Shown: positions 26,228 to 62,647 of the stretch, piece after piece | Numbering within the stretch: position 1 is the first letter of the stretch | How the letters are laid out: every line of letters starts with the position of its first letter | NCBI GenBank assembly: GCA_003024785.1 | Contig: PUQB01000180.1 | Span: 62,001-126,000, forward strand | Length of the DNA stretch: 64,000 nt | Direction of reading: 5' to 3' | Origin: Selaginella tamariscina | Lineage: Eukaryota > Streptophyta > Lycopodiopsida > Selaginellales > Selaginellaceae | Translations under genes and position numbers: made by a program | The notes under the pieces: model-generated | Database searches by the model: none | What the model was told of the DNA's origin: nothing | The model's input: only the letters and a program-made list of their open reading frames with translations

Positions 26228-26359
26228 TCATCAACTGTGGTTTATACCCTGTACTTTGGCACAGTCTCACTCCATGTCCTACTCCTCCACACAATTGACA
26301 TTTCGATATTTTACATTCCGAAGCACTGTTTCTTCATTCTTACATGTTGTGCATATTAC

Positions 26360-27017
26360 TGTCACGACCGATACATGATATAGGATTTTGGATACAGAAT
26401 TCTAGATATAGGATACAGGATACAAGATATGCATGCAGGATATTCCTACAATATATACCTACAGAATATTCCTAGAGGATATGCCTACAGGATATTCTTA
26501 CAGGATATGCCTAGAGGATAAGGGACATGTGGACTCATTTTAGCCTCTACATGCATATAACCACTTTTAGATGCATGCAACCACTTTTAACATTCATGCT
26601 TAGATTAGCTCTTGGAGTTATGAGCATAAAAGCTCTGACCTAATTGTTGTACAATCAGTTACTATTAACACCAGTCATTCTACGATCATTCTTGTTCTTG
26701 CCTTGTTCGTGTCTTGCTCCTTGCCTCTTGCTCTTGTCTTGCTCCTGGTTCCAGTCCTGCTCTTTTGCTCTCGGATCTTGTCTTGCTTCCGGATCTTGTC
26801 TTGCTCCCAGATCCTGTCTTGCTCCTGGATCCTGTCCTGCGCCTTCCTGTCATGCTCCTGTCTTACTCCGAATCCTATCCTGTTCCTGTTTTGCTCCTGG
26901 ATCCTGTCCTGCGCCTTGTCTTGCTCCTGAGTTCCTACTTCCTGTCCTGGTCCTGAGTCAAGCCTTCTTGTTCTTGGAACCCTACTCTCTTCCTGGTTCC
27001 TGGATCGTGGCTTGACA
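26360..27017 (+). repeat. 5' LTR of element C
   Basis: Begins TGTCACGACC and ends GGCTTGACA. Its first part holds repeated GGATATNCCTACA units, and its second part holds a degenerate 15-17-bp minisatellite built on CTTGCTCCTGGATCCTGT. Confidence 0.9.
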
Positions 27018-27122
27018 GTTTGATAGTAACTGATTTTATAGCTCTTCGATTCCTAGTTACTTTTTTTTTTTTCCTTGGTTTTTCTCCTTCGTTTTCCTCT
27101 TTTTGTTTTTCTTTTCATATAT

Positions 27123-28100
27123 CATGGCCGATTTTGAGCACTTTCAATGCGAGCACCAAATGTTGCTTCATGAGCTGGCCACTTTGCGCCAAGTGGTCAC
27201 AGATCTGCAAAGTTCCACCAACGCGGCACATGCAGCTGCTGATGCATGCTCCAAGGCTGCTGCACAGGCTCTCTCTCAAGCATCGGTGGTTTCCTCTCCA
27301 TCGAACTTTTCTTCGGAGCCGAAGATCAGCATGCTAGAAAAGTTCAATGGCAATCGCATCGATTTCCAAGGTTTCCTAAATCAGATCCGGCTCTTGATCC
27401 GCATGCAACCACGCTGCTACTCGACTAATGCACAAAAGGTTGGCCTTTTGGCATCCTTACTAATTGGATCTCTACGAGCTTGGGTTGCCCCCTTGCTGGA
27501 GCGTGATGACCCGTTGATGGAAGACTTTGAAGGTTCGTGGCTGCCTTTGAAGCTTGCTTTGGAAATCCTGATAAGTACCATTCCGCATGCACGAAGTTAT
27601 GAAAGCTCACTCAAGGATCCCGACCAGCTTCTGTTTATGCATCCGAATTTCAGCAACTTTGCACGAACATTCCATGGGACGAGACTACATTGATCGAACA
27701 CTTCTGTTTTGGGTTGAGGGATGACGTGAAGGACCTTCTCCTTATATTACCAAATGCCCAAACATTAGCAGAGATCATGCAACAAGCCGTTCGCTGCGAC
27801 AACCGTTTGTTCGAGCATTGTTAAAAAAGATCCCATCAGCAGTTCTTGCAAACCAATCCTACAACTGTGGTACATGTTCCTGCAACACCTTCTGGAGTAG
27901 TTCCTATGGAGGTTGAGAAATTCAAGCGTGGCTCTCTTTTCGCTACTAAGAAGCAACATCGCCGCAGTGAGAACCTATGCTTGTATTGTGGTGAAGCAGG
28001 ACACAAGGTGGCAGAATGTCCTATTAAAGCCAGAAAGTTCAAGACACGTGAAGTTGAAGCTGAAGTTCAGTCGGAAAACTTCAATGTTCACTTTATTTAG
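27123..28100 (+). pseudogene. gag region of element C
   Basis: Retrotrans_gag-type sequence (ADFEHFQCEHQMLLHELA, FQGFLNQIRLLIRMQPR) followed by a CCHC knuckle (CLYCGEAGHKVAEC near 27980). Fossil; broken. Confidence 0.85.
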
Positions 28101-28569
28101 GAGCTACGAAGTTGGACGTATGTGCAGGCTCCATTGGTGCTGCTCATAGCAATCCATCACTCAAGTTTCCTGTATATATTCATCTCAATAATCGAGAGCT
28201 CAAGGAGACACTGGTGCAAATGCATGCTTCATAGATGACACTTTTGCAACTCAACATAGCATTCCGGTGGTGGAGTTGAAGTGTGCAGTTCCTGTAAAGG
28301 TGGCCGATGGTCGTCTGATTACTTGTGGTGCAATTATCCATGCTACCAAACCTCTCTCTTGCAGTCATGGAGCATTCAACTGTTCAATTATCTTCAACTT
28401 GATCAAGACTCGGTCGACTCCCATCATTTTGGGCACGCCATGGTTCGTTGTTGCAAATCCACAGATCGACTGAAGGTCTAGGACGCTCACGTTTTCCTCT
28501 CCGGCAGCCAAGATTAATCTTGTATCTTCATGCGTGCAGGATACATCCTTAGTATCTGAGGCAGTACAA

Positions 28570-31500
28570 GCTACATGATTGACCGTGCCTGTTCCTGTAT
28601 CAGTGTTGAAGACTCCTCTTCGACAGGATTCACCTCATGTCAGTTCCTCAGCACATCCGCATGCTCTCTCCACTCATGTAAGTTTGCGGATTCCTGTACA
28701 GGGTTTTCCAATCCTGTATCAGTGTCAAAAGGTTCCTCCTCAACAGAATCCACCTCTTGTTGGTTCATCAGCACACTCACAGGCTTTCCTCACTCCTGTG
28801 CAACCACGGACTTCTGTACAGGATTTTCCAATCCTGTACATTCGTCAACATCCACACAGGTTTTTCCCAATCCTACCTCCTTTTGTTACTTTGCTTCTGT
28901 TCCACCCCCAAGATCCTTCCTCTTTTCAGTCACAGCTCCCTCCTTCTCCTCTCCGAGTTCTTATCACTACCATGCATAAACTTGCCACTGATCCTGCTCC
29001 TTTCCATCTTTTTGCCTTTCAAGTAACTCCTACGTCCTCTTTTACCTTTCCTGTATCTGACTCTCCTGTTTTTCAATCTTCTTCTCCTTCTCCTTCTCCT
29101 TCTCCTTCTTCTTCCTACCATCCAAGTATCACTCCTTTCAGGACGTTTTTGACAAGCACAAGGCTGCAGTTCTTCCTGTTCATAGGTCCTACGACTGTCC
29201 TATTGATCTTGCAGAAGGAAAGACTCCACCGTTCGGACCAATCTATGCACTGTCACCCACAGAGTTGGAGGTTCTTCATCAGTACATTGAGGACAACTTG
29301 GCATCCAACTTCATTCGTCACTCAAAGTCCCCTGCAGGAGCACCTATCTTTTTTGTCAAGAAGAAGGATGGGAGTTTATCTTTGGTTGTGGACTACAGGG
29401 GTTTGAATCTAGTCACCATTCGGAACCGGTACCCGTTGCCATTGATCCCGGAACTTCTCGATCGGCTGCGAGGAGCAAAGCTTCATGAAGATCGACTTAC
29501 GAGGGGCCTACAATCTTGTACGGATTTGTCCAAGCGATGAGTGGAAGATTGCCTTTCATACAAGGTATGGACACTTCGAGTACACGGTGATACCTTTCGG
29601 ACTTACCAATGCCCTAGCTGTGTTCCAACACATGGTGAACGACATCTTTTGCGACTTCTTGGACCAGTTTGTGGTGATCTACCTGATGACATTTTGATTT
29701 TCTCCAAGGACCAGGCGGCACATAAAAGCATGTACGATTTGTTCTACAGCGATTTCGTGAGCATGGCTTGTATACGAAGTTAGAGAAGTTTTTTCGATAG
29801 GGATTTTGTGGAGTTCTTGGGCTACATCGTCTCTCCTGCTGGCGTTTCCATGAACATGCACAAGGTGAAGACCATCGTGGAGTGGGAGAGGCCCAAGTCT
29901 ATACGAGACGTACAATGTTTCCTTGGCTTTGCAAACTTCTACAAGTGGTTCATACAGGACTTCTCCAAGCGTGTACTTCCACTCACGGAACTCACCAAGC
30001 ACACATGGGTTTTCTCTTGGTTTGACAAGGCGGAACATGACGCCTTCACGACAGCTCCAATCCTAGTACATCCTGATCTTTTCCATCCCTTCTTCGTTGA
30101 AGCAGATGCCTCGGATTTTGCAGTAGGTTCTATCCTATCACAAGTTAGAGAAGACAAGTTACTCCATCCTGTAGCCTTTCACTCTCGTAAGTTTCTTTCG
30201 GCGGAGATTAATTATGAAATTCATGACAATGAACTAAAGGTCATTATGGATTCGTTCGAGGAGTGGCGGCACTTCCTGGAAGATGCTGCGCATCCTGTAC
30301 AAGTTCTTACGGATCACAAAAACTTGGAGTTTTTTTCAAATGGCTCGAGTTCTCAGTCAGTGACAGGCTAGGTGGCAGAATTCCTATCATTTTGATTTTA
30401 TCATCGTCTACATGCCCGGTTTCTAGAATGGTAAGGCGGACGCATTGTCTAGGCGCTCTTACCTTGCATTGACCTGGCGATCCTGCATATGATTGTCAAA
30501 GGCAAGTGTTGTTGGGTCCTGATCATTTTCAGCTTACGACACTATTTCATCAGGCTCCAGCAAATTCAACACTTCTACAGGACATCCGTTCGCAGTTGGC
30601 TATAGACGACTTGGTAAGAAATGTGTTCTCACACATTAGTCTTGACATCGCAAGCTCCTCTTCCTCTAGTTCCCATACAGACTATAAGTTGTTTGCCATA
30701 CAGGACGGACTTTGTACCGGAAGGTCTTCTGTACGTTCCTGTTGGTGTTTGCAGGACTCGTGTGGTACAGGATTGTCATGATACACCGGCTACAAGACAT
30801 TTTGGTGTGGCCAAGATAGTTGAGTTGGTGACTTGCAACTATTGGTGGCCTGGGTTGTGAGGTTTTGTGGACAAGTTTGTACGAAGTTGTGACACCTGCA
30901 ATAGGTCGAAGATGCCTCGTCACGCGCCTCTGGTCTTCTTCGTCCTCTTCCTGTTCCTCTCTACTTGGAGATCCATTTTTATGGATTTTCTCACAGATCT
31001 CCTTTCTCGTGGATTTGATGCAGTTCTTGTGGTGGTTGACCGTTTTACCAAACAGGCCTACCATGTAGCAAGACTGCTACATGCCAGACAACTGCTGTTG
31101 GTGATCCGAGTGTTCCGACACCATGGTTTCCTGAGAGCATTGTTTTTGATCGAGGTCCACAATTTATGTCCAAGTTTTAGCGAGAGCTTCTTTGAAGTCT
31201 ACAGGTTAAAGCAGATCTTTCTTCAAGATATCATCCGCAAATTGATGGGCAGTTAGAATGGACAATTCAGACTTTAGAACAATATCTTCGTTACTTCATC
31301 AATTATCAACAGGACAACTAGTTGGACCTTCTTCCAATGGCGGAGTTTGCCTACACAACTCCGTTCATGCATCTACATGCCAGACACCTTTCCTTGCTCT
31401 TATAGATTACCATCCACGTTTTGACTTTGCTCTCCTGTTCTCTTCTTCCGCTCCTACAGTATAGGATCGTCTCCGCATCTTCGTCAGGTACAAGAGGATA

Positions 31501-31830
31501 TCCATATTCATCTTTAATAGGCAAGGAACGGTACAAGCATCATGCTGATGCTCATCGCCAGCCGGCACCTGCATACAAGATTGGTGATCTCGTGTGGCTT
31601 CTTTGTCGACATATTCACCAACATGCTTCTTCTAAATTGGATTTTCAACGATTGGGCCCTTATAGGATTGCAGCGGAGGTCAATCCTGTAGCTTTCAGAC
31701 TCGAGTTACCATTTACGGTGAAGCTTCACCTTGTGTTTTACACTTCTTTGTTAGAGCCGTATCATCCTTCTTCTCTTCCTGGTCGTGCTTCTTTCCTCCC
31801 TCCTGTGGTCATTGACAATGACTGAGTACA
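28570..31830 (+). pseudogene. pol region of element C
   Basis: Protease-side linker rich in Ser/Pro, then reverse transcriptase, RNase H ([22 protein letters not shown]), integrase head and core, and a C-terminal chromodomain-type segment. Domain order is that of Ty3/gypsy. Fossil; broken in many places. Confidence 0.85.
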
Positions 31831-32013
31831 AAGTTGCAGCCATCCTTGATTCTATCTTATCACCGCCACTTTAATACTTGGTGGATTGGAAAGGTTATTT
31901 GCCTACCGATCGCACTTGGGAACCTGCATCTAACTTACTCACGCTTCTTCCAAAGTTGCTATTTATAGCATATTCTGCTAAACCTCGTGGAACTTGTCCT
32001 TAGGGGGAGGTGC

Positions 32014-32663
32014 TATCACGACCCGATACATGATACAAGATTTCGGATACAGAATTCCGGATACAGGATACAAGATACATGATATGCCTGCAAGATATTC
32101 CTACAAGATATACCTACAGGATATTCCTAGAGGATATGCCTACAGGATATCCTATAGGATATACTACAGGATATGCCTAGAGGATAAGGGACATGTGGAC
32201 TCGTTTTAGCCTCTGCATGCATATAGCCACTTTTAGATGCATGCAACCACTTTTAACACTCATGCCTAGATTAACTCTTGGAGTTGTGAGCATAAAAGCT
32301 CCGACCTAATTGTTGTACAATCAGTTACTATCAACACCAGTCATTCTACGATCATTTTTTTCTTGCCTTGTTCGTGTCTTGCTCCTTGCCTCCTGCTCTT
32401 ATCTTGCTCCTGATTTCGGTCCTACTCTTGTCTTGCTCCCGGATCCTATCCTGTTCCTGTCTTGCTCCTGGATTCTGTCCTACGCCTTCCTGTCTTACTC
32501 CCGGATCCTATCTTTGTTCCTGTCTTGCTCTTGAATCCTATCTTGCGCCTTGTCTTGCTCCTAAGTTCCTACTTCATGTCCTGCTCCCTGTCCTGCTCCT
32601 GAGTTAAGCCTTCTTGTTCTTAGAACCCTGCTCTCTTCTTGGTTCCTGGATCGTGGCTTGACA
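32014..32663 (+). repeat. 3' LTR of element C
   Basis: Preceded by a GGGGGAGG purine tract and followed by the right target duplication ATTAC. It retains the same internal minisatellite as the 5' LTR. Confidence 0.9.
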
Positions 32664-32669
32664 ATTACC

Positions 32670-43505: not shown

Positions 43506-44147
43506 GATAGAGAGAGGGGGGGCGGTCATCCTGTATATTCTGTATATGTTGCTTGTGTAAGTATAATATGGTAGAATGAAGCTGTGTATCTAGATTCTAG
43601 ATTTATAAATGTACTTTTTTTTTTCTTTCTTTAAAGAAAAATCCATTTCCGAATGTGTGCCCATTTCCCTCTAAGCTGAACACAGCACACATCCCTACCT
43701 GTCATTAATTCCAACACTCCCCCCACCACACATCCCTACCTGTCACTCCAGGCCTACCACAGGTCATCCAACCACACATCCCTACGGATTTGGACAGGTC
43801 TTGGTACATCCCTACGGATCTGGACAGGCCGGGATTGAAACCAAGACCTCTTCTACTCCAGTCCTACCACATGATCCAACCACACCTCCCTACGGTAATC
43901 CTGTGCGACCTGGTTCTACGAGGATGGCTGGGCCTCTAACAACACGAACGAGCTCGATGGACGGGGAGGTGACTCCCTTTCAACTCTCTTGCTTCCCAGG
44001 GAAGCACTAAGGGAGAGTGGTTTAGTCCATTAGATGCTTATCTCACATTAAGTGCATGGATGGGTCCCAGTGGACGGGGAGACAACTCCCTTTCAACTCT
44101 CCTGTTCCCCAAGGGAGCTTAAAGGGAGAGTGGTTAAGTCTGCTTGG
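42991..44147. other. LAX upstream region, copy 2
   Basis: Corresponds to 6138-7249. It contains a duplicated (ACAT)n(TA)n(GA)n tract with flanks repeated in tandem (43375-43440 and 43441-43520) and a tRNA-SINE fragment around 43795-43880. Bases 44137-44147 (AGTCTGCTTGG) form the left target duplication of the transposon. Confidence 0.65.
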
Positions 44148-44167
44148 GTCTCGGCGAAAAGGAGGCT
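44148..44167 (+). repeat. Left terminal inverted repeat of the MULE-type element
   Basis: GTCTCGGCGAAAAGGAGGCT matches the reversed right end at 13 of 20 positions, most strongly in the inner GGAGGCT. A further CAGGAGGC and a run of ATTCTAG/AATATTC-like motifs follow inward at both ends. Confidence 0.7.
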
Positions 44168-44247
44168 CCGGCTCAGGAGGCTTCATATTATTCTAGTATA
44201 TTCGCGGATATTCCAGGGTTATTCTAGCATATATAAGTTTTTTAATA

Positions 44248-44276
44248 TGCCGACTGGCTTAATATATGCCGACTGG
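44248..44276 (+). promoter_or_regulatory. Left subterminal TGCCGACTGG pair
   Basis: TGCCGACTGG occurs at 44248-44257 and 44267-44276, embedded in a repeated ATATGCCGACTGGCTTAATA unit. The same core appears near the right end and in the central array. It is a candidate binding site for the transposase or for the ParB-domain protein. Confidence 0.55.
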
Positions 44277-44309
44277 CTTAATAAAACATTATCCTAAACC
44301 CTAAACCAT

Positions 44310-47300
44310 TTATCCTTGTAGCACCGGTGGGTCATGAACTCTGTTGCAATTCACCAGCAAACGGTGGACCTCCATGTCACTGAGCGATCGCCTTTGTAGA
44401 AAATATGTGACTTCCGGGTTCAAGCCAAGCACACGGCTATAGACGAAGTACATGTGTACACATGGGCTCCAACTTTTGCTCTTCTGAAATGTAGAACAAC
44501 TGCATGAAGGATAAGTATTAATAGTCACCTTTGCAGAGTCATTTCCTGCCGACACAACGAAAGCCTCCTTCCGTCCTCTAGCTGTCACTTCAACATTTCG
44601 CACACAACCTAAAAACGTCTTGGCCTTGCGGAAATTCTTCTCTTGTTCCTTAGACATTTTTGTTGGAGTCCGAACCATACGTCCTTCGAAAGGTGGAATT
44701 GTTGTAGATCCAGCTCCACGTGGTGGCGATGGTGTTTTGTCCTTCTGACCCTCATCTACTCTTCCTGCCATCCCCTGTAAACCTTCCAGAACAAAGCCTG
44801 CATCCTGTAGTTCTCTGACCTCCTCACTTGTCAGCTTCGTTTCCTTGAGCACAGGCCAAACCGTTGGTGGTGTTGGAATTCGTGACCGAAGAATTTTGCC
44901 GTTTGGCCGCGTGAAACACCCTGAATCTTTTGGGCAGAACCACATCATCTGTTGTACATACTCCTCATTCCCCAAGGCATCAATGTACATTCGTTTTCCA
45001 TAGAATCCTGGTGCTGGCACTCTGCTTGGATAACCGATTGGTTTTCCACACAGAGCAGTTCCTTCCTGATTCATCCCCAAACACTTAACCTTACTGGATG
45101 CTCCGATTCGTCTGATGGCCCACTCTGTTTGAGCAATCTCTCTCTCCGAAACCTCTTCGAACCTTAACCTCTTTCTCCTGTTGTTTTGGACCACCCGCTC
45201 TGTGTACTCTACATCATGTCTGTGTGAACGTCGAGCATCAGACTGTTCTGTTCCTGTGACTGTTCTCCTAACAGTTTGCACTCGAACGTTAGTGGTACTC
45301 GTGAACTCCGGGCTGGTCAAGTGTTCCTCGCCTTCCACCAGATTAATAATTGTTGATGGAGATACACTTTTCCCCTCAGAGAGTTTGCGTTGCACTCGTT
45401 TCAACAGAGTTTCCTTCGAAGGCCCTGACCCTGTATACCTCCCTTCTATTGCCGCTTTCACCTTCGCACTCTGCATAACTGCATCGGTGAGGTCTAACAT
45501 TGTCGCCTCCAGCAGTGGTACTCTTTTGGCCAATCTTGCTCTTCTTGCTCTCGCGTGAATCACTTCAGCATTGTTTGTAGTTGGAACGCTCGCGAGTCCT
45601 TCTTCTGTCATGTCTCCCAGTTCCGCCATGGAGATGTGGTCCTCATGCCTGATCCACCAAGACAGCCATGTCTTCAAAGCTCGAATGTTTGACGCTCGTC
45701 CTTCCCAAAAGACTCGAGAATTGCCAGTTGTTCTTTCTTAGATTGTTCATTCAGTGCTGCAGGCCAGGCACGAGCAAGCTTCATGTGTTCTTCGCGATGT
45801 TCTTCTGCGATCCATTTCTTTGTCACCTGACGCACGGATTGCATAAAGTGAAACAGACAGCTTCTTTCCCTCCCTTTCATCTTTGCTCCGTTGTTGAATA
45901 CTTGGCGCAAGGCTATCCATATCGCTCCAGCCTCATCCGACATGAAACCAGCAAAGTTGACATTCTCCAAACCCTGCTTCTTACAAACCTCTAGCATTGT
46001 GTTCAAGAACTTCAGCACTGCAACATTATCTTCGCGGCACATATCTGCGTAAGCTATAGTCACCATGGATCTGACACTGCAAGAGAGCGTTAGATAACGA
46101 AGATTAGAAAGTGTTATGAAGAGTTTTACAACTTACAATGGGTCATAAAGGTGTATTCCAATTGTCGCCCAGTCTGGTATGCGGTGCGTGTGGTCCAGAA
46201 CAACCCATTGATCATGAAGGTCTCCTCCACTTTGACACCTTCTGATGTACTCAACTCCTGAACCCGGTCCCTCAACTGTCATTTTGAAGATCAGAGGCTG
46301 CTCCTCAGCACCATGCAGTTCCATCCCTGGAACATGTATGACGTGAATGAAAGGTATTGGCAGCTTTGTCTTCAGCTCCAGAAGACCCTCGTAACCCTCT
46401 CTAAAGTGTGTCTCCTTCTGTCTTGATTGTGTAATCCAGTCCCGAGTCCTAAAGAAAAGGTCACGTCAGTGTGTAGAGATCTAAAAAAAAATACCTTCGA
46501 TGGTTTGTTAGAGGTTCAAGTTTTGAGAGTAAACCAGTGTACGAGACTTCTCCTTCTTCCTTGAAAAGTTCTTCAAAGATGAGCTCACGCGCGGCTTGAA
46601 ACTCAATCACTCGTTGATTGGTTCGCGGACTGCTCTTTACCACGTTGCTGACACTAGATCTGGCTCGCTGAACGTTTGAAGCTGACACTGAGGGGCTGAC
46701 TGGATGCTGATGAACACCTCTGTGAATGAACAACCTTGTAAAAGAAATGTCGTCTGGCAGAATGTAGTACACATAAGCCGGACAAGTGTGCACCAGCAAT
46801 GGCTCCTCTCCACAATGCTTACATTTTATGCCTATTACTTTGCCTGTCTCAGTTGTCTTTGCCTTCTCCACAGCACCCTTGAAGTGACATTCATTTGCTT
46901 TCTTCTCAAAAGCCAAGTAGGGGCAGGTAGGATTGATGCATTGGAGATGTCCGACACATGAACTTCGACTGACTCGCGCCGGAACATGCCAGTGTGTTGT
47001 GCTCGGGTGTGTCCAATGGTAGCAGCCATCCTTGCGATTCATCCCCGAGTACTTCTCTGTGCTTTCTGTCTTAGGGGGAAGTTCGAAAATGACATTTCCA
47101 TTGTATATCTGCGGTAGTTCAGAGACTCGTTTAACTTCAGACGAACCAATGAGATCCTTCCCTATCCTACATTTGTCTGCTCTTAGAAGACACACCAGCA
47201 TGGATTCCTCACGCTCCTCTGTCCGCAACCTGAACAACGGGCCCTTTGCCGGGCACAATGTGTAAAAGACAAACTGGTTTGATGCATTGCCTTCTGGTAA

Positions 47301-47474
47301 CAACTCCACATCTTCTCCAGAACTCGCAGAAACTGACATCAATTGAACCACATGTATACTGAACCAACAAGGAATGTTGAAAGCAATGTGAAGATCATGT
47401 TCAAACACAAAAGCATTTCCATCTTCATCGACTGGGAAATCTTTGTCAATGCCTTCATAGGTAACTCTGGCCAT
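44310..47474 (-). CDS. MULE transposase (GCM/WRKY-like zinc finger, DDE core, SWIM finger)
   Basis: Four coding pieces on the minus strand: 47474-46495, 46448-46137, 46076 to about 45675, and about 45677-44310, about 1020 residues in all. The two introns (46494-46449, 46136-46077) have GT-AG ends and join in phase. Residues 170-260 hold C-x4-C (GHLQCINPTCPYL), C-x2-C (KCKHCG) and an H-x-H-P end (GVHQHP), like the GCM/WRKY-type fingers of MULE transposases. The catalytic core follows: first Asp near 412 (VVLDHTHR), second Asp near 478 (GFMSDEAGAIW), the MULE-specific C-x2-H near 504-507 (SCLFHFMQ) and Glu near 601 (TTNNAEVIH). A SWIM finger (C-S-C...C-V-H) lies near the C-terminus. A one-base frame change near 45676 has no plausible intron, so it is either an inactivating lesion or an assembly error. 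Confidence 0.85.
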
Positions 47475-48070
47475 GACAACGCAAGGAGAAAGCTCGGTGG
47501 TTTAGGAAAGCAAAGCAAAAGATTAAACACACTTTCCTTACCAAAAAAAAATTACAATCGTTAAATAAACGTGAATACACGTTTGTATATAATTAATTCT
47601 ATGCTGCCCAGTTCACAGTGTTCTTAATGATGTCCTCTCTAGTATCACCGATTTAATTTAATTTCTACCTTTTATGATTTGAAATATCTTCACATTTACC
47701 AATTATTCACATATTTTAAAATAAACCCTAAATATTAATGTCACATTTATTCCGTAGGGTTCACTGTTTTCATTGCGGCTAGGGTTTTTTGGTAGATAGG
47801 GTTTACTGTTTCCATTGCGGCTAGGGTTCTTTCAATCTCAGATCTGTTTCCACTGCGGCAGATCCAGAGGGTTTCTTCAATCTCAGATCTCAGAGTTACG
47901 GTTTCCACGGCGCCATCCATTTCGACTCGATTCGTGCAGCGCCCAAGTATAACAATGGAGATTTCTGTGCCGATTTAGATTCTCGGCACCATCCTGCTCA
48001 GCCGGCGGCCACAAGGTATGTGTAATTTCTGTATTTTATGATTTGCGGCTCAAAGTATTTCTTTTTCCAG
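47475..48070. promoter_or_regulatory. Bidirectional intergenic region of the MULE-type element
   Basis: Lies between the two divergent start regions, so it must hold promoters for both genes. It contains plant telo-box motifs (AAACCCTA at 47723-47730, TAGGGTTT at 47780-47787 and 47797-47804) and about three copies of a CATTGCGGCTAGGGTT unit. A degenerate first member of the downstream exon-like array ends at a CACAAG|GTATG splice donor at 48015. No TATA box stands out. Confidence 0.55.
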
Positions 48071-48930
48071 AGATATAGGGTCTTCTTATTTGTGCCGACT
48101 GAGAGCAACGGCACCATCCTGGTTCAGTCGGCAAACACAAGGTATCGTCGATTTATTTATTTTTTTCCTTGCGGCTCAAGTATACGTGTCACAATGTTTT
48201 TTTTTCAGAGTTAATGGGTCTTTCCATTTGTGCCGACTGAGAGTGACGGCACCATCCTGGTTCAGTCGGCAAAAACAAGGTATTTTCGATTTGTTTTTTT
48301 TTGCTTTCTGGCTCAAGTATTCGTATCACAAGGTTTTTTTTTCAGAGTTAATGGGTCTTCCCATTTGTGCCGACTGAGAGTGACGGCACCATCCTAGTTC
48401 AGTCGGCAGCCACAAGGTATGTTCGATATTTTATTTTTTGCTTTCTGGATCAGTATTCGTATCACATTGTTTTTTTTCAGAGTTAATGTGTCTTCTCATT
48501 TGTGCCGACTGAGAGTGACGGCACCATCCTTCTTCAGTCGGCAGCCACAAGGTATTTTGAATTTGTTTATATTTTGCTTTGCGGCTCAAGTATCCGTATA
48601 ACAATGTTTTTTTTCAGAGTTATAGTGTCTTCCCATTTGTGCCGACTGAGAGTGACGGCACCATCCTTCTTCAGTCGGCAGCCACAAGGTATTTTGAATT
48701 AGTTTTTTTTTTCTTTGCGTCTCAAGTATTTCTTTTAAAACAGTTAATGGGTCTTCCCATTTGTGCCGTCTGAGAGGGACGGCACCATCCTATCTCAGTC
48801 GGCACCATTATCTCTTCAGTGCCGTCTGACAGAGTCGGCACAAACTATCTCAGTCGGCAGGTTTTTTCTTCTACATCTCTCTGCCGACTGAGAGGGTCGG
48901 CAGCATCTAGCTTGAGTCGGCAGCCACAAG
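48071..48930 (+). repeat. Tandem array of exon-like units upstream of the methylase gene
   Basis: Five units of exactly 71 bp (48071-48141, 48209-48279, 48346-48416, 48481-48551, 48618-48688) are each preceded by a pyrimidine tract ending CAG and followed by AAG|GTAT. They are separated by intron-like spacers of 64-67 bp. Two altered members follow (48744-48860 and one ending at 48930 with AAG|GTTAG). The spacers themselves are similar to one another (TTGCGGCTCAAGTAT...). Each unit carries TGCCGACTGA, an internal GTGCCG/CGGCAC stem and TCAGTCGGCA in inverted orientation. The array lies in the 5' untranslated part of the methylase gene; the last acceptor, at 48997, opens the exon with the ATG. 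Confidence 0.85.
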
Positions 48931-49007
48931 GTTAGTCATCTTTGTTTGTTTTTTTATTTTGACTCCTCATCAATTGACTTGTGTGTTTACTTTCCAGAGT
49001 TTACAAA

Positions 49008-52000
49008 ATGGTGAGAGCTTCAAAACGTCTACTAGAGACTGCGCCTGATGAAGAGCCACGGGAAGAGAAGAGGATATCGAAGCAGAAGCGAGGCAAGAGA
49101 GGAGAACCATCTAATGTAGCAAAGGAGGATCCTCCAGTGACTCAGTCTGGAGTAGTAGCAGTTGAGCAAGAACAGCCTCCACCAACAATCACAGATTTCC
49201 CGGAGAGCTCGTCGCAGTTGCCTCCTTCATCCGCTGAGGTTGCAGTCCTGAACGAGCAAGTGCAGATGACAGAGGCAGCTGAAGCTAGCGAGGACGACTT
49301 GGAGGAGGCAGTCAGCAAAAAGAGAGGCCGCGGGAAAGCTGATTCAAAAGGCAAGAAGGCGAAGAGCGATAAGGAGCCGAAGGAGTTATACAGCATACCG
49401 GCGAGCCTGCATTTGGAGAGCTCAGCAAACCTGCTCGACAAAATTACTATCAAGGGACTTGGTGATCCTCCTGATGTGCCCATCTGCAGAATACATTCCA
49501 ACGAGGTGGTTCGACGAGTGAACCCAGGGGACTTGGACAGGCTGGTGTCATCGTTGAAGAAGGCTGGTTATCTACGCAACACGGCCTTGTTCATTCTGTC
49601 CATCGGAGATCGACTCACTGCTGAGGAGCTATCGGAGCTGTCGAAGGACACGATTCAGTACGAGCAGCACCGGTCTTTCGAGCAAGCTCTTACTCAGCCG
49701 GAGTACAAACAGTGGGCTTCAAGGCTCTCAAACAGGAAGTTTAGCTGCTGGGACGGGAACCATAGGCTACAGGCTTTGCAGAAGCTGTACCGAGAGGATG
49801 CAGAGGACAACCAGCGATGGGCTATTCGCGTTCGATCGAGTTTCATCTCCACGGAGAACCTCGACATTCTTCAACTGGTTTCGATGTTCCAATCGATTAA
49901 CATGTGAGTATTTTCTTTTCTTTTTGTTAAGAGTTTAGACTTACAGTTTCGTTGAACAGATCTTCAGCAACATCTGTGGAAACAACGCTACCACATATTC
50001 TCCTCGCTGTAAAGGCGGTCTGCACTAGTACAGAAGGAACTCAGAAAATCCTCGAGTCACTCACGGAGGTTGATCGTCTTGAGGTGCGGAAGTGGAAGGA
50101 GAGTTCATCAGGAAAGACGGCTTGGCATCCTCTTCCGAACCTGATCTGCGCAAAGATACTTTTCAAGGTAACCTCCGATTTAATTTATAGGAAAGAAATT
50201 TTTAACTTGTTCTATGTGCAGAACGAGATCGACGATGATCTCGACAGAGCAGTCACCAGTGCTAAGGGCAATTCACAGGTTGAGGTGAACCTAAAGCAGC
50301 TAGTGTACAAGAAGCATGACAAGCGTATGCACAAGTTCCTCTCCATCATAGACCCAGACTTGGGGGAGGAGTGGTTCCAGAAGGTGACAAACATCTCTCA
50401 TAAGCAGTGTCGCTGGATGGGCATTGAGAAGCTGTATGCGATGTCAAGGGCGAAGATTCCAAACATGCTGCGACTCCGATACCTGAACAAGCTCACCCGT
50501 CTCGAATCCAAGGCAGAACAACAGACACTTGGGCTACCGGGCATGCAGGACAAAGAGTGGATCAAGTGGTTCACCTTGGACTTATATTGGAAGGCTGTGC
50601 GCGAGGAAGCCATTCAGATCCTTAAGGGGTTGCGAGAGGATGGTGAAGAAGTTGGAACGGATGTCGACTTCATGAGCTGGTTTGACGAGATGAGAATTCG
50701 GAGCAAGTGCCTGGTCTTTCAGCCCTTCCATGACTGCATACGGTTCACTTATTCGATGGAGCCGAATGAGTTTCTGGAGCGTGAGGAATCTGCGCGTCGG
50801 ATGATATGGAGGTAAGCTTTCAATCCAGCATTGCTACTGTCTGACTTTGTGTTGCAGGTTCATACTGGCGAAGCAAATGACACCGTCCCATACGATGAAG
50901 CTGTGGACAGATCATACAAGCGAGCCTCACATGTGGTCGAAGAGCAGAGGAGCTCTAACACCGTTCGAACGGGAGCATGTTCCATTCTGGCTCGACTGTC
51001 CGTCGCAACAGCCACCAGCTTGGGAGAGCACACTATTCGACATGCACGCCAATGATCTACCAGCGATTGTTTGGGAGCCAGAAGAAGTAGAGGCTATCAA
51101 GAAGAGCAAGATGAAGAAGACGGTGCGGAAGACAACTACACCTGCAAAGGGATCGGGAGCGGGACCAAGCTCTTCTACAGCACCTCCGCCGGCATTCGAC
51201 TTTACAATCAATGAGGTACAGCCACTTGTAGCTAGTTTGGACATCAAGGACGACCTGATGACCTTCATCCCGACCCTGGCTGCATCCCGTGGATCCTACG
51301 ACCTAGCTGTGTGCGACATGGAGGAGATGAGCAGGTCTTTCTTCGAGCCAGGTGCTTCCCAGACAGAGGTGTACACCAAGCTCCGAGAACAGGTTGACAG
51401 ACTACATACGGTTGAGTCACAAACGTTGTTCCAGGAAGTGGTAGGTGAATACGGCTTCAACCTCATCATCCTCGACTTGCCCAATGAGCTTGTATATGGA
51501 GGTGCTAGCATCAACAAGGACATTGTGCAGCTAGATCCGGTGAAGTTTGAGGAGGCCTTGCAGTTCAGTGGAATGCACTTGGCAGCGAGTGGTTTCATGG
51601 TCGTCTTCGCGAGTTCTCCTTCTGTTTCGGCGGTGATTCAGGCGGCTGCAGTAATCAACTTGGAGGTTGCAGGGACTTACAGCGTCTACCGTGCACGAGG
51701 CTGGGGATACCGTGACAAAATTAAGGTAAGCTAGCTATTCAAGTTCAAGTTTAACTTGGTCTATGTGGCAGGATAACTTGTTAGTTCTCTTGGTGCTGCA
51801 AAGCTCTGAGAAGAAGTCGAAGAGGCCAAACCCTCTGGCGTTGACGAACACGATCCTCGTCGACACTGCCGACCGTTATCAGGAGGCTTGGTAAGGAAGT
51901 GCTTTGCTATGTTTATCCTAATGGAAGATTGTGCAGGATTATGATTCAACCGAAGAGTGTTCGACTCATGCAGCTTTTGATCGAGCGTCTCAGTAGACCT

Positions 52001-52234
52001 GGCGACCTAGTCTGGGATATTGGTTCCGGAACCGGGTCATCATTGTTAGCTGCCGTCGAGCTCGGAAGGAATATTATAGGAACCGAGAAGAGTTTCGAAC
52101 TCTCTAGGTTGGCAACAAACAAGCTTGCAGAGAACATTAGACCAGAAGAGTTACCTACTCAAACACCTCCACGTCCAAGCGTAACTGGTGGTTCGAGAAC
52201 TGCAGCTTTACTTAAGATGAAGAAGAAACTTTAG
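49008..52234 (+). CDS. ParB-domain protein with C-terminal N4/N6 DNA-methyltransferase-like domain
   Basis: Six exons (49008-49903, 49960-50167, 50222-50811, 50858-51725, 51772-51890, 51937-52234) join in phase through 46-56-bp GT-AG introns to give 992 codons and a stop. Residues 1-130 are charged, low complexity, with a basic nuclear-signal-like stretch near 104-122. Residues about 158-300 resemble the ParB N-terminal domain, with CWDGNHRLQALQKL at 247-260 as the conserved GxxR-type box. The middle (300-720) is unassigned and helical-looking, with Lys/Pro-rich linkers. Residues about 720-965 have the order of beta-class aminomethyltransferases: a motif-IV-like strand LIILDLPNE near 771, then PGDLVWDIGSGTGSSLLAA near 921 (AdoMet motif I) and GRNIIGTEKS. 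Motif IV reads DLPN, not DPPY/SPPY, so catalysis is uncertain. The start is the first ATG after the last 5' intron. Confidence 0.82.
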
Positions 52235-52314
52235 CTAATGTATATTGAGTAATAAATTAAGCTAATATAAAAAAAAATAAAAAAGAAATACAACATTTTA
52301 ATAGAATTCTTTTT

Positions 52315-52341
52315 TGCCGACTGAGGCCAATACTGCCGACC
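52315..52341 (+). promoter_or_regulatory. Right subterminal TGCCGACTGA motifs
   Basis: TGCCGACTGA at 52315-52324 and TGCCGACC at 52334-52341 mirror the left subterminal pair and the motif of the central array, about 90-110 bp inside the right end. Confidence 0.5.
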
Positions 52342-52407
52342 AGAAAGAATATTCCAAAATATTCTAGAATATTCTTGAATATTCGAGCCCAGGCCTCCTG
52401 GGCCCCA

Positions 52408-52427
52408 AGCCTCCAAAATGGCGACAC
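52408..52427 (-). repeat. Right terminal inverted repeat of the MULE-type element
   Basis: Reverse complement GTGTCGCCATTTTGGAGGCT pairs with the left terminus. Two more bases (TC) lie between it and the AGTCTGCTTGG target duplication at 52430-52440. Confidence 0.65.
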
Positions 52428-52440
52428 TCAGTCTGCTTGG

Positions 52441-56408: not shown

Positions 56409-56973
56409 TGTCAAGCCACGATCCAGGAACCAGGAAGGGAGTAGGATTACAAGAACAGGAAGGCTTGACTCAGGACAGGACCGAGTGCAGGACATGAACT
56501 AGGAATAAGACAGGAACAGGACGGATCCAGGAGCAGAACAGGATCAGGGTAGGATCCGGGAGCAAGACAGGAAAACACAGGACAGGATCCAGGAACAAGA
56601 TAGGAGCAGGACAGGATCCAAGAGAAAGACAAAAGCAGGAGGCAAGGAGCAAGACACAAAGAAAACAAGAACAAGAATGATTATAGAAAGACTGGTGTTG
56701 ATTGTAACTAATTGTACAACAATTAGGTCGGAGCTTTTATGCTCACAACTCCAAGCTAATCTAGTATAAGTCTAATTAGTCAGAGTCTAATCTAGTCATG
56801 AGCTAAGAATAGTGACCCTTATCCTCTAGGCATATCATGTAGCATATCCTATAGGAATATCCTGTAGGTATATCCTGTAGGAATATCCTGTAGGCATATC
56901 TTGTAGGTATATCCTGTAACCTGTATCCTGTGTCCGAAATCCTGCATCCTGTATCCTGTATCGGGTTGTGACA
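56409..56973 (-). repeat. 3' LTR of element B
   Basis: Runs from TGTCAAGCCACG to GGTTGTGACA on the plus strand. A CCTCCTCCC tract just inside (56977-56986) is the complement of the polypurine tract. Confidence 0.88.
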
Positions 56974-56989
56974 GCACCTCCTCCCTAAG

Positions 56990-59900
56990 GACGAGTTCCA
57001 CGAGTCTTAGGACCTGGTTTAGCAGGATAATGCCGATGAAAGGCAGCAACTTTGGAAGAAGCATAGAGTAGGTTGGATGCAGGTTCCAAGTGCGATCGGT
57101 AGATAAATAACCTTTCCATTCCACCAAGTATTGAAGTTGGGCGGCGATGAAGACGAGAATCAAGGATGGCTGCAACTTCGTACTCAGGTTCACCAGCAAT
57201 GACCACAGGAGGGGGAGGAGAACAAGCACACCAGGAAGAGAAGAAGGATGATACGGCTCTAACAAGGAGGTGTGAAACACAGGATGAAGTTTCACCGTAG
57301 ATGGTAACTCAAGTCGGAAAGCTATAGGATTAACCTCCGCCACAATCTTGTAAGGCCAATCGTTGAAAATCCAACTTAGAAGAAGGCCTGTTGGTGCGAA
57401 TGTGTCGACGAAGAAGCCACACGAGATCACCAATCTTGTATGCAGGTGCCGGCTGACGGTGAGCATCGTTCTTGTGCCTGCTGAAGATGAACCGGAGATC
57501 ATCCTGTACCTAACGAAGATGGAGGCGATCCTGTACTACAGGAGCAGAAGAAGGAGAAAAGTCAAAACGTGGATGGTGGCCTGTAAGAGCAAAGAAAGGT
57601 GTCTGGCCTGTAATGGCGTGAATGGAGTTGTTATAGGCAAATTCCGCCATTGAAGAAGGTCCAACTAGTTATCCTGTTGGTAACTGATGAAGCAACGAAG
57701 ATACTATTCCAAGGTCTGAATTGTGCGTTCTGACTCCCATCAATTTGCGATGATATCCTGAAGAAAGATCCGCTTTAACCTGTAGACTCCGAAGAAGCTC
57801 TCGCCAAAAACTTGGACATGAATTGTGGACCTCGATCGGAAACAATGCTCTCAGGAAGACCATGATGTCAGAACACTTCACGGATCACCAACTCAGCAGT
57901 TGTCTGTCCTGTAGCTGTCTTATTGCAGGGTAGAAAATGAGCCTGCTTGGTGAAATGTCAACCACCACAAGAACTGCATCGAATCCACGAGAAGGAGGAA
58001 GATCTGTGAAGGAAATCCATAGAAATGAATCTCCAAGGAGCAGAAGGAACAAGAAGAGGACGAAGAAGACCAGAGGGTGCATGATGAAGCATTTTTGACC
58101 TGTTACAAGTGTCACAGCTCCGTACAAACCTTTCCACAAAACCTCGCAACCCAGGCCACCAATAGTTGCGAGTCACCAACTCCACTGTCTTGGCCACACC
58201 AAAGTCTGTAGCCGGGGTATCATGACAATCCTGTACCACACGAGTCCTGGAAATACCAACAGGAACGTACAGGAGACCTTCCCGGTACAGGAGTCCATCC
58301 TGTATGGCGAATAACTTGTAGTCTGAACGGGAACTGGAAGAAAAGGAACTTGCAATGTCAGGATGAATGTGTGAGAACACATTCTTTGCCAAGTCGTTTG
58401 TAGCCAACTACGAACGGATGTCCTGTAGGAGTGTTGAATTTGCTGGAGCCTGATGAACCTGTAGTGCTGCAAGCCGGAATCGATCAGGACCAACAACACT
58501 TGTCTTTGACAGTCATATGCAGGATCACCTGGGACCGGTGCAAGGTAAGAGCGCCTAGACAATGCGTCTGCCTTGCCATTCCAAAAACCGGGCCTGTAGA
58601 CAATGACGAAATCAAAACTTGATAGGAACTCTGCCCACCTAGCCTGTCGCTGACTAAGAACTCGAGCCGTTTGAAAATACTCCAGGTTCTTGTGATCCGT
58701 AAGAACTTGTACAGGATGCGCAGCACCTTCCAGGAAATGCCGCCACTCCTCTAACGAATCCACAATGGCATTGAGTTCCTTGTCATGAATCTCGTAATTG
58801 ATCTCCGCTGAAAGGAACTTACGAGAGTGAAAAGCTACAGGATGAAGCAACTTGTCTTCTCTTCAACTTGTGATAGGACGGATCCTACTGCAAAATTCGA
58901 GGCATCTGCTTCAACGAGAAAGGACGAAAGGGTCAGGATGTGCTAAATCGGAGCTGTCGTGAAGGCGTCCTTGAGTGTTGTGAATGCATGTTCTGCCTTG
59001 TCGGACCAAGAGAAAACCTTGTGCGTTTGGTGAGTTCCGTGAGTGGAAGTACATGCTTGGAGAAGTCCTATATGAACCGCCTGTAGAAGTTTGCAAAGCC
59101 AAGGAAACATTGTATATCTCGTACAGACTTGGGCCTCTCCCACTCCACGATGGTCTTCACCTTATGCATGTCCATGGAAACGCCAGCAGGAGAGACGATG
59201 TAGCCCAAGAACTCCACAGAATCCCTATCGAAAAAACACTTCTCCAACTTCGCATACAGGCCATGCTTGCGAAGCCGCTGTAGAACCAATCGTACATGCT
59301 TGTCATGTGCCGCCTGGTTCTTGGAGAAAATCAAAATGTTCGAGGTAAGATCACCACAAACTGGTCCAAGAAGTCACAAAAGATGTCGTTTACCATGTGT
59401 TGGAACACGGCTGGGGCATTGGTAAGGCCGAAAGGCATCACCGTGTACTCGAAGTGTCCATACCTTGTACGAAAGGCAATCTTCCACTCATCGCCTGGAC
59501 GAATTTGTACAAGGTTGTAGGCCCCTCGTAAGTCAATCTTCATGAACACCTTTGCTCCTTGCAGCCAGTCAAGAAGTTCCGGGATCAATGGCAACGGGTA
59601 CCGATTCCGAGTGGTGACTTGATTCAAACCCCTATAGTCCACAACCAAACGTAAACTCCCATCAAAGAAAATAGGTGCTTCTGTAGGAAACTTTGAGTGA
59701 CGAATGAAGCCGGATGCAAGTTGTCCTCGATGTACTGACGAAGAACCTCCAACTCTGTGGGTGATGTGCATAAATCGGTCCGAACGATGGAGTCTTTCCT
59801 TCCGCAAGATCAATAGGACAGTCGTAGGACCTATGAATAGGAAGAACTGCAGCCATGTGCTTGTCAAAAACGTCCTGAAAGGAGTGATACTTGGATGGTA

Positions 59901-60450
59901 GGGAGAAGGAGGAGAAGGAACAGGGTAGGAGAAAGAGATTTGAAAAACAGGAGAGTCAGACACAGGAAAGGTAGAAGAGGATGTAGGAGTTACTTGAAAG
60001 GCAAAAAGGTGGAAAGGAGCAGGATCAGTGGCAAGTTCATGCATGGTAGTGGTAAGAACTCGGAGAGGAGAAGGAGGGAGGTGTGACTGAAAAAGAGGAA
60101 GGATCTTGGGGGGTGGAACAGAAACAGAGTAACAAAAGAGGCAGGATTGGGAGAAACTGTGTGGATGTTGACGAGTGTACAGATTGGAAGAATCCTGTAC
60201 AGAAGTCCGTGGTTGCACAGGAGTGAGGAAGCCTGAGTGTGCTGACGAACCAACAGGAGGTGGATCCTGTTGAGGAGGAACCTTCGACACTGATACAGGA
60301 TTGGAAGAACCCTGTACAGGAATCCGCAAACTTACAGGAGTGGAGAGACCTGCGGATGTGCTGAGGAGCTGACATGAGGTGATCCTGTCGAGAAGGAGTC
60401 TTAATACTGATACAGGAACATGCACGGTCAATCCTGTAGCTTGTACTGCC
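56990..60450 (-). pseudogene. pol region of element B
   Basis: Chromodomain-type end (YLVEWKGYLSTDRTW near 57040), integrase, RNase H (LTDHKNLEY), reverse transcriptase ([38 protein letters not shown]) and a Ser/Pro-rich linker, in minus-strand order. Fossil; broken. Confidence 0.85.
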
Positions 60451-60649
60451 TCAGATACTAAAGGATGTGTCCTGCCGCAGGATGGTACAGGATTGATCCT
60501 ACTGTCGGAGAGGAAAACGTGAGCGTCCTAGCCTCCAGTCGATCTGCGGATTTGCAACAACGAACCATGGCATGCCAAAAATGATGGAGTCCGACGAGTC
60601 TTGATCAAGTTGAAGGAAATGAACAGTTGAATGTGCCATGACTGCAAGA

Positions 60650-61221
60650 NNNNNNNNNNNNNNNNNNNNNNNNNNNNNNNNNNNNNNNNNNNNNNNNNNN
60701 NNNNNNNNNNNNNNNNNNNNNNNNNNNNNNNNNNNNNNNNNNNNNNNNNNNNNNNNNNNNNNNNNNNNNNNNNNNNNNNNNNNNNNNNNNNNNNNNNNNN
60801 NNNNNNNNNNNNNNNNNNNNNNNNNNNNNNNNNNNNNNNNNNNNNNNNNNNNNNNNNNNNNNNNNNNNNNNNNNNNNNNNNNNNNNNNNNNNNNNNNNNN
60901 NNNNNNNNNNNNNNNNNNNNNNNNNNNNNNNNNNNNNNNNNNNNNNNNNNNNNNNNNNNNNNNNNNNNNNNNNNNNNNNNNNNNNNNNNNNNNNNNNNNN
61001 NNNNNNNNNNNNNNNNNNNNNNNNNNNNNNNNNNNNNNNNNNNNNNNNNNNNNNNNNNNNNNNNNNNNNNNNNNNNNNNNNNNNNNNNNNNNNNNNNNNN
61101 NNNNNNNNNNNNNNNNNNNNNNNNNNNNNNNNNNNNNNNNNNNNNNNNNNNNNNNNNNNNNNNNNNNNNNNNNNNNNNNNNNNNNNNNNNNNNNNNNNNN
61201 NNNNNNNNNNNNNNNNNNNNN
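60650..61221. other. Assembly gap (572 N)
   Basis: All N. It lies within the gag/protease part of element B. Frames that run through it are not evidence of coding. Confidence 0.99.
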
Positions 61222-61930
61222 TCTTTCCTGACGACGCTCGAACAAACGGTTGTCGCAACGAACAGCTTGTTGCATGATCTCCGCTAATGTTTGGGCATCC
61301 GGTAACGTAAGGAGAAGGTCCTTCACGTCATCCCTCAACCCAAAACGGAAGTGTTCGATCAATGCAGTCTCGTCCCATGGAATGTTCGTGCAAAGTTGCT
61401 GAAATTCGGATGCATAGACGGAAGCTGGTCGGGATCCTTGAGTGAGCTTCCGTAACTTCGTGCATGCAGAACGGTACTTATCAGGATCTCCAAAACAGGC
61501 TTCAAAGGCAGCCACGAAACCTTCAAAGTCTTCCATCAATGGGTCGTCACGCTCCAGCAAGGGGGCAACCCAAGCCCGTGGAGATCCACTTAGTAAGGAT
61601 GCCAAAAGACCCACCTTTTGAGCATCAGTCGAGTAGCGCCGTGGTTGCATACGGATCAAGAGCCGGATCTGATTCAGGAAACCTTGGAAATCGGCACGAT
61701 TGCCACTGAACTTCTCTGGCATGCTAACCTTCGGCTCCGAAGAAAAGTTTTGATGAAGAGGGAACCACCGATGCCTGGGAGAGAGCCTGCGCAGCAGCCT
61801 TGGAGGATGCATCAGCAGCTGCATGTGCCGCAGTGGTGGAACCTTGCAGGTCGGTGACCACTTGGCGCAAAGTGGCCAGCTCATGAAGTAACATTTGGTG
61901 CTCGCGTTGAAAGCGCTCAAAATCAGCCAT
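61222..61930 (-). pseudogene. gag region of element B
   Basis: Retrotrans_gag-type sequence (ADFERFQREHQMLLHELA, FVAAFEACFGDPDKYRSA, ASEFQQLCTNIPWDETAL) running into the assembly gap. Closely related to gag of element C. Confidence 0.85.
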
Positions 61931-62015
61931 GATCTAGGAAAGAAAAAGGAGGAAAATGAAGGAAAAGAATCAAGAAAAAGGTAGCTGGAAAACTATGAAG
62001 CAGTTACTATCAAAC

Positions 62016-62647
62016 TGTCAAGCCACGATCCAGGAACCAGGAAGAGACAGGATTCCAAGGACAGGAAGGCTTGACTCAGGAACAGGACCGAGAGCAGGAC
62101 AGGAACTAGGAATAGAAAGGAACAGGACGGATCAGGAGAAGGATCAGAGATCCAGCAAGGACAGACAGGAAAGCACAGGATCCAGGAACAAGAAGGACAG
62201 GACAGGATCCAGGACAGGATCCAGGAGCAGGACAGGATCCAGGAGCAGGACAGGAACAGAGCGAGACAGGACAGGACAGGAAACAAGACAAGAACAAGAC
62301 AAGACGAGATTGATCGTAGTAAGACTGGTGTTGATAGTAACTGATTGTACAACAATTAGGTCGGAGCTTTTATGCTCACAACTCCAAGAGCTAATCTAGG
62401 CATGAGTGCTAAAAGTGGTTGCATGCATGCAAAAGTGACATGCATGCTGCAGAGGCATATCCGTGTATCCTGCCCTATCCTGTGCATATCCTGTAGGAAT
62501 ATCCTGTAGGAATATCCTGCAACCAATTGTATCCGGAATCCTGTAGGAAAGTCCTGCAACCCATATCCTGTATCCGGAATCCTGTAGGAAAGTCCTGCAA
62601 CCCATATCCTGTATCCGGAATCCTGTATTCTGTATCGGGTCGTGACA
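62016..62647 (-). repeat. 5' LTR of element B
   Basis: Partner of 56409-56973. It contains repeated CAGGATCCAGGA(G/A)CAGGA units and, near its other end, tandem AATCCTGTAGGAAAGTCCTGC units. Confidence 0.88.

Follow-up and report, generated by a model that had tools for sequence, protein, structure and literature searches.

DNA transposons that carry a gene joining a ParB-like part to a DNA methyltransferase are known from algae. Sola1-1_Ec32 of the brown alga Ectocarpus is 21.5 kb long and encodes an accessory protein of 1104 aa with a ParB-like part and an N4/N6-type methyltransferase, and transposon proteins of a like kind from green and red algae are cited in the same paper to Iyer 2011 and Petroll 2025 (PMC12477816). 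A different accessory protein is carried by VANDAL elements, which are Mutator-like elements (MULEs). VANC binds the 9-base motif YAGTATTAY, which is dense in the non-coding parts of VANDAL21 and often lies in tandem repeats with a single orientation, and through its action the element loses methylation; the targets differ between related elements (PMC5735166). We analysed a stretch of 64,000 nucleotides from Selaginella tamariscina (contig PUQB01000180.1, positions 62,001 to 126,000 of the forward strand), hereafter the window, which holds a MULE-like element encoding a transposase and, head to head with it, an accessory protein with a methyltransferase domain.

As in Sola1-1_Ec32, the accessory gene lies on the strand opposite the transposase and combines a part that is ParB-like by motif with a methyltransferase part, here in 992 aa (PMC12477816). 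The two elements were compared by description only; the present one differs in being MULE-like, in its length of about 8 kb, in its 9-bp target duplications and in its land-plant host, and also in forming several families with hundreds of copies, in having a candidate target site shared between families and in a methyltransferase motif IV that reads DLPN. It shares with the VANC-bearing VANDAL elements a MULE-borne accessory gene and a dense 9-base motif in the non-coding regions, but its accessory protein has a methyltransferase domain, its motif stands mostly in inverted pairs and the core site is common to two divergent families (PMC5735166). DNA-modification enzymes also travel aboard fungal DNA transposons, as TET/JBP dioxygenases, but these act by oxidation and in fungi (PMC12730594); dinoflagellate and charophyte retrotransposons likewise encode methyltransferases, but of the C5-cytosine type, which makes 5-methylcytosine (5mC), and in retrotransposons (PMC5890265). 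The enzyme that makes N4-methylcytosine (4mC) in bdelloid rotifers is a host gene. It too is a prokaryote-type amino-methyltransferase in a eukaryote (PMC8885841), but it is not carried by a transposon.

The extra genes listed in the sections consulted of a MULE survey include none of the ParB-methylase kind, and no word starting with "methyl" occurs in its main text (PMC6446971); "ParB" and "methyltransferase" are likewise absent from the main text of a 2026 review on how plant transposons capture genes (PMC13317346). We found no report of a ParB-methylase gene in a MULE or a land plant in the open-licence literature. The original prediction, made from the window's letters, had stated that no MULE was known to be paired with such a gene; this stands for MULEs and land plants, but the sections consulted of the Sola1-1_Ec32 paper place ParB-methylases in algal transposons (PMC12477816). 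The class of transposon is therefore already known. As far as the open-licence literature shows, what is unreported is the MULE-like carrier, the land-plant host, the joint selection on both genes, the shared site and the DLPN motif.

Our reading, to which we assign a probability of about 0.5, is that the element belongs to a MULE-like cut-and-paste lineage whose stable set consists of a DDE transposase and a head-to-head accessory protein that binds TGCCGACTG and modifies or coats the element. Two observations carry it. The gene pair recurs in hundreds of copies, in two high-copy families and in older decayed copies, and keeps its layout; the test proposed earlier, that the two genes should be neighbours again between ends of a similar kind and 9-bp duplications, was thereby passed. 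In addition, TGCCGACTG clusters in the leader between the two genes, its pairs spanning about 40 bp in two families, and near both ends of the element at least the first eight bases of the site are found again.

The genome searched comprises 300,702,823 bases in 1391 contigs and contains 335 exact matches to family-1 methylase 18-mers and 274 to family-1 transposase 30-mers, family 1 being that of the window. Scoring covered 40 of 575 left-end candidates and 40 of 540 methylase candidates. Twenty stretches (L009-L028) were fetched from the 40 scored left-end matches and are not a random sample; each covers 98-100% of the element, both genes included. One of them, L014, is a contig end (C476) with the identical insertion and flanking DNA, probably an allelic or duplicate contig, and was excluded from the counts of independent copies because its flanks are those of the window. 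The element with both genes is thus present in the window and in 19 independent copies. A divergent transposase lies within 12 kb of 64 of the first 100 listed family-1 methylase matches, at a median distance of 3.9 kb, and a methylase lies beside 64 of the 86 transposase matches in the same contig range (exact matches only). Exact matching loses mutated copies: when six of the 36 unpaired methylase matches were checked, the transposase was present in five. The sixth, L032 (C449:1018513), lacks a transposase at the expected place and is either a rearranged copy or a solo methylase. The copy in the window is mostly more than 99% identical to the other copies per segment, and the small number of substitutions between copies speaks for a recent burst. 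Pairwise dN/dS among the 20 copies (nonsynonymous over synonymous change; groups mostly 0.3-0.5 for the methylase and 0.15-1.2 for the transposase) was set aside because the choice of copies had relied on similarity at the transposase end and because indels occur in many of them.

The limits of the element, its target duplication and its empty site are as follows.

44146-52429, no strand: complete MULE-like element of family 1, 8284 bp, ends fixed against other copies
44137-44145: left copy of the 9-bp target duplication AGTCTGCTT
52430-52438: right copy of the 9-bp target duplication AGTCTGCTT
44146-44213, plus strand: left end, imperfect terminal inverted repeat (GGGTCTCGGCGAAAAGGAGGC...)
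52347-52429, minus strand: right end, imperfect terminal inverted repeat
7187-7308, plus strand: empty site in the paralogous segment (left flank, target once, right flank)

Comparison with other copies showed that the element begins with GGGTCTCGGCGA. GG precedes GTCTC in 17/17 fetched copies with a readable left end (it is unreadable in L014, L025 and L028), and because this GG stays constant while the flanking DNA and target sites change, it is the element's own end. The predicted 8.28-kb insertion was therefore upheld with corrected limits and imperfect repeats, and the predicted 11-bp duplication proved to be one of 9 bp, the extra GG belonging to the element. The exact empty site was borne out, the paralogous segment holding the target once. 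The window and 11 of the 19 other independent copies have a perfect 9-bp duplication, with flanks read by eye; it is absent from L010, L020, L021 (8/9 bases match), L024 and L026, and could not be judged at one end in L012, L025 and L028. The best local alignment of the terminal inverted repeats pairs about 44160-44213 with about 52347-52399. The element has two features expected of MULEs, terminal inverted repeats, imperfect as they are, and a target duplication within the 8-11-bp range. The paralogous segment carries an insertion of its own at 7309-9158, with TG...CA ends and CAGAG on both sides (by eye); a search of it for direct repeats of at least 40 nt returned just short internal ones and no terminal pair. 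More widely, the window contains a large direct duplication (1-13059 versus 36334-56408, 82-96% identity) and further, largely inverted repeats (26359-32666 versus 56409-62647).

As predicted, the element holds just two genes, which are divergent. The transposase consists of three exons running head to head with the methylase gene, from 47474 to 44310 on the minus strand.

46495-47474, minus strand: transposase exon 1, same intron position in the family-2 copy L029 (by eye)
46137-46448, minus strand: transposase exon 2, probable first catalytic D (VVLDHT)
44310-46076, minus strand: transposase exon 3, with the second D (FMSDEAG), CxxH (SCLFH), E (TTNNAEV) and a SWIM-like C-terminus
45707-45710, minus strand: shortened T run (coding strand TTTT), by which the transposase of this copy loses its frame

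A protein search with the transposase returned two distant relatives, P0001 (644 aa) and P0002 (976 aa), which have a MSDEAG ... SCxFH ... E core in common with it. The columns of the second D, CxxH and E of the catalytic D-D-CxxH-E series are kept against both (30% and 25% identity, respectively), and the first D aligns with P0002 only, P0001 being without that part. The SWIM domain (PF04434) scores E 0.0083 and 16.1 bits, below the Pfam cut-off of 19.6, and it is below cut-off in P0001 as well (E 0.0029). No transposase Pfam model matched the transposase core of the two families up to E = 10, and we use the label "MULE-like" because no MULE transposase profile in Pfam matches. The predicted MULE core was thus supported, the SWIM finger falling short of the Pfam threshold. 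P0001 and P0002 point to a wider transposase group unrecognised by Pfam. The frameshift in the window falls just before the catalytic E; the T run is short in 13 of 20 copies, the window included, and one base longer, as the frame requires, in the other seven. In family 2 the frame is open across this position.

Family 2 repeats the arrangement. A WDGNHR pattern from which the window's codons were excluded has 220 matches in the genome, a few of which belong to other families; of the 100 matches listed, 96 are mutually identical. A second-family transposase pattern, with up to 3 mismatches, has 209 matches. A family-2 transposase lies within 12 kb of 88 of the first 100 listed methylase matches, and a methylase lies beside 87 of the 93 family-2 transposase matches in that range. 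The copy L029, one of the WDGNHR matches, contains an element at about 855-8736 with similar ends and a 9-bp duplication, ATTAAAACC (one copy only), the divergent layout of the window and, where the frames could be compared by eye, the same intron positions; both of its genes have frame breaks. Its methylase is 58% identical to that of the window over 853 aligned columns. Two decayed copies, L037 and L038, mostly at 30-56% protein identity, carry both genes head to head, the fetched stretch of L038 holding only the start of the transposase and the middle part of that of L037 being unrecognised. A more decayed copy, L030, retains a recognisable methylase alone. Between families 1 and 2, the proportion of differing silent sites (pS) is 0.84 in the methylase, i.e. 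saturated, with dN of 0.37; two transposase pieces give pS of 0.80 and 0.76 and dN of 0.27 and 0.28. Conservation of both proteins in the face of saturation at silent sites shows that selection has kept methylase and transposase through the split of the two families.

The accessory gene occupies six exons with GT-AG introns of 46-56 bp (49008-52234, plus strand), and its 992 codons are open, in agreement with the original prediction.

49008-49903, plus strand: methylase exon 1, ParB-like region from 49395, WDGNHRL from 49749
49960-50167, plus strand: methylase exon 2
50222-50811, plus strand: methylase exon 3
50858-51725, plus strand: methylase exon 4, motif IV DLPN at 51474-51485
51772-51890, plus strand: methylase exon 5
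51937-52234, plus strand: methylase exon 6, motif I DIGSGTGSS (52016-52042), PF01555 match

Its C-terminus matches Pfam PF01555 (N6_N4_Mtase) with E 1.1e-8 and 35.8 bits, above the cut-off of 26.7. The name "aminomethyltransferase-like" given earlier belongs to another enzyme and has to be replaced, the domain being that of a DNA (N4/N6) methylase. The PF01555 match covers residues 898-953 and motif IV precedes it, so that the order is IV ... X-I, as in the beta class. A two-family profile compared with solved structures found MboIIA, DpnA and CcrM as best matches (E 2e-4 to 2e-3). Families 1 and 2 both retain an intact motif I, DIGSGTGSS. The N-terminal series VPICRI...NP.DL...GYLRN...WDGNHRL is conserved in both families, and the WDGNHRL box in 4/4 aligned rows; we take this series, with its DGNHR-type box, to resemble ParB by motif only, a likeness that no profile confirmed, and "ParB-like" is used here as a working label. 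No relative of the methylase was found in about 5.8 billion proteins, of which some 8000 candidates were scored per search. Two short peptide patterns gave 137 matches in viral contigs and 119 in prokaryote genomes, none confirmed as a methylase relative. Phage searches returned no relative of the ParB-like part and, for the methyltransferase part, 386 weakly matching records, none covering 80% of it.

The window contains 16 copies of the candidate site TGCCGACTG, all of them inside the element, 13 in the leader and three near the ends.

47475-49007: shared leader between the divergent genes, 13 TGCCGACTG sites
48093-48133: inverted pair 1 of TGCCGACTG, 41 bp across
48231-48271: inverted pair 2 of TGCCGACTG, 41 bp
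48368-48408: inverted pair 3 of TGCCGACTG, 41 bp
48503-48543: inverted pair 4 of TGCCGACTG, 41 bp
48640-48680: inverted pair 5 of TGCCGACTG, 41 bp
44248-44275, plus strand: two subterminal TGCCGACTG sites, left end
52315-52323, plus strand: subterminal TGCCGACTG site, right end

Under a first-order Markov model, 0.22 copies of TGCCGACT are expected in the element and 18 are present (19 in the window); L029 has 15 against 0.13 expected. The pair span is 41 bp in 5/5 pairs of the window and 39-40 bp in 5/5 pairs of L029, and the spacers differ between the families. Neighbouring copies in L029 abut five times as the 18-bp palindrome CAGTCGGCATGCCGACTG; near its right end the 9-mer is exact, and near its left end only the first eight bases are present. 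Across the genome, inverted pairs with a gap of 2-30 bases number 2314, and the reversed-pattern control gave 0. The 20 family-1 copies contain 7 to 18 sites each. Among decayed leaders, where 0.1-0.3 sites are expected per leader, L030 has three intact eight-base sites, L038 one intact and one CpG-decayed site, and L037 three decayed ones. Each of the five leader pairs of the window lies in a 71-nt cassette running from a polyT-CAG acceptor-like to an AAG|GTA donor-like site, as if the 5' leader of the methylase were a chain of repeated micro-exons.

In the mechanism that we propose, the accessory protein, a ParB-like N-terminal region joined to a beta-class amino-methyltransferase domain, would use its ParB-like part to bind the TGCCGACTG sites, as a dimer or a larger assembly, and with S-adenosylmethionine as cofactor would modify or coat the promoter and ends of its own element. 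The modification or coating may allow the element's machinery to tell it from other DNA and may prevent the host from silencing its promoter, much as VANC does for VANDAL elements. The original prediction that the element recognises its own DNA gains in concreteness from the repeated short site in non-coding DNA, which suggests such recognition; that it "marks" or "protects" that DNA would be a further step. The odds appear about even that the accessory protein recognises the TGCCGACTG arrays, which we regard as candidate binding sites. That it methylates them, at N4 of cytosine or N6 of adenine, we put forward more tentatively, and the passage from binding to methylation is the least certain part because motif IV is DLPN. 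In a still more specific and less probable version, TGCCGACTG, in family 2 as the palindrome CAGTCGGCATGCCGACTG, would be the private operator of a self-recognition system. The ParB-like methylase would load on it in the promoter and near the ends and would leave there a mark other than 5mC, through which the element stays expressed or its transposition is directed, operator and protein having stayed matched across families whose silent sites are saturated.

Several observations weigh against this reading. No ParB profile of Pfam, PHROGs or NCBIfam matched at usual thresholds, and the predicted ParB-like domain was to that extent unconfirmed, the likeness being by motif only; a trimmed piece reached PF18763 (ddrB-ParB) weakly, at E 0.21, and the sequences of solved structures yielded alpha-Rep proteins only (E 0.49 and 1.6). 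A DOCK_N match in one family-2 member (E 0.00056) was taken as spurious. Two AlphaFold predictions of the region had a mean predicted local distance difference test score (pLDDT) of 48.6 and 37.6 and were unusable. All NCBIfam matches of the methyltransferase part are far below cut-off, with the non-DNA methyltransferases CpaM and CbiT scoring about level with CcrM. The methylase frame is uninterrupted in only 3 of 20 family-1 copies (the window, L021 and L025), and the transposase model is open to its end in none, the longest reaching 919 of about 1019 codons (L009). Either intact copies outside this set help most of the others to move, or the assembly contains many small indel errors; long-read assemblies may hold homopolymer errors, which are relevant to the frameshifts. 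As for the sites, L023 has the lowest number, with 4 in the leader and no inverted pair (the only such case among 20 copies), and the leader stretches of decayed copies hold no more than 2-3 each. The total of three in L037 is not unusual for the locus as a whole, being reached by 22 of 200 shuffled sequences, and decayed site forms were admitted only after the data had been seen. Moreover, C-to-T changes among the 20 family-1 copies examined give no sign that the sites are protected (5/858 in sites versus 63/12181 elsewhere at CG; 6/957 versus 50/15243 at CHG). Outside the sites, this change is commoner at CG (63/12181) and CHG (50/15243) than at CHH (88/47018), as expected if the element carries ordinary 5mC. 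Finally, motif IV departs from (D/N/S)PP(Y/F/W), so that the enzyme may not methylate, and nothing ties the sites to the accessory protein in preference to the transposase or a host factor.

The departure in motif IV bears on the alternative that survives best, namely that the methyltransferase domain is catalytically dead but conserved as a scaffold for S-adenosylmethionine or DNA, and the protein a plain DNA-binding regulator. Since DLPN is found in families 1 and 2, L037 and L038, it is a conserved departure from the standard motif and not the decay of one copy, and both families retain motif I intact. An altered motif IV is also seen in inactive partners such as METTL14. Conversely, the motif has preserved its D and P even though silent divergence is saturated, the decayed L030 reads DPPM, and rRNA dimethylases use NLPY-type motifs, so that a leucine in second place need not kill activity. 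We consider a dead domain a serious possibility, about as probable as methylation of the arrays and, like it, short of an even chance.

A less probable but still substantial alternative is that TGCCGACTG belongs to the transposase, for end recognition and autoregulation, the accessory protein doing something else. Transposases of other plant elements bind near the ends (Spm TnpA, Ac), and in families 1 and 2 each end has sites, or their first eight bases, close to it, with left and right oriented alike. However, 13 of the 16 window sites are in the leader, largely as inverted pairs and not at the ends, and one protein could do both jobs.

We think it improbable that the sites are those of host transcription factors of the DREB/CBF type. 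GCCGAC is the core of the dehydration-responsive element/C-repeat (DRE/CRT) bound by these factors, and S. tamariscina is a desiccation-tolerant lycophyte, a resurrection plant; the match to the core is exact and the leader that holds the arrays is bidirectional, so that the element could switch on upon drying. Against this, GCCGAC stands within TGCCGACT in 18 of 22 occurrences in the window element and 15 of 19 in L029, showing conservation beyond the 6-bp core; the pair span is nearly constant; and the subterminal copies are far from the promoter, on the downstream side of both genes.

Less probable again is an action of the inverted pairs in RNA, where they would fold into hairpins within 5' leader exons spliced into the methylase transcript. 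All five window pairs sit in exact 71-nt splice-like cassettes and their arms are complementary, but the subterminal sites are not inverted pairs, and the L029 leader, which by eye has no repeated splice cassettes, keeps both the sites and the span. A one-off capture or chance nesting of the methylase gene, for which only L032 (1 of 6 checked unpaired copies) could be invoked, is refuted by the recurrence of the pair in the window, 19 independent copies, L029, L037 and L038 and by the conservation of both genes at saturated silent divergence. An interpretation as a Pack-MULE gene fragment was considered and dropped.

With this element, the known range of transposon-borne ParB-methylases reaches beyond algae to a land plant, where the carrier is present in many copies and was apparently active recently; selection has long acted on its accessory gene as well as on its transposase. 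The predicted target site is concrete, and makes the published speculation that such proteins bind and modify their own element directly testable. If methylation were shown, the element would provide a self-encoded non-5mC mark in a vascular plant and, beside VANC, a second route by which a MULE-type element may escape silencing.

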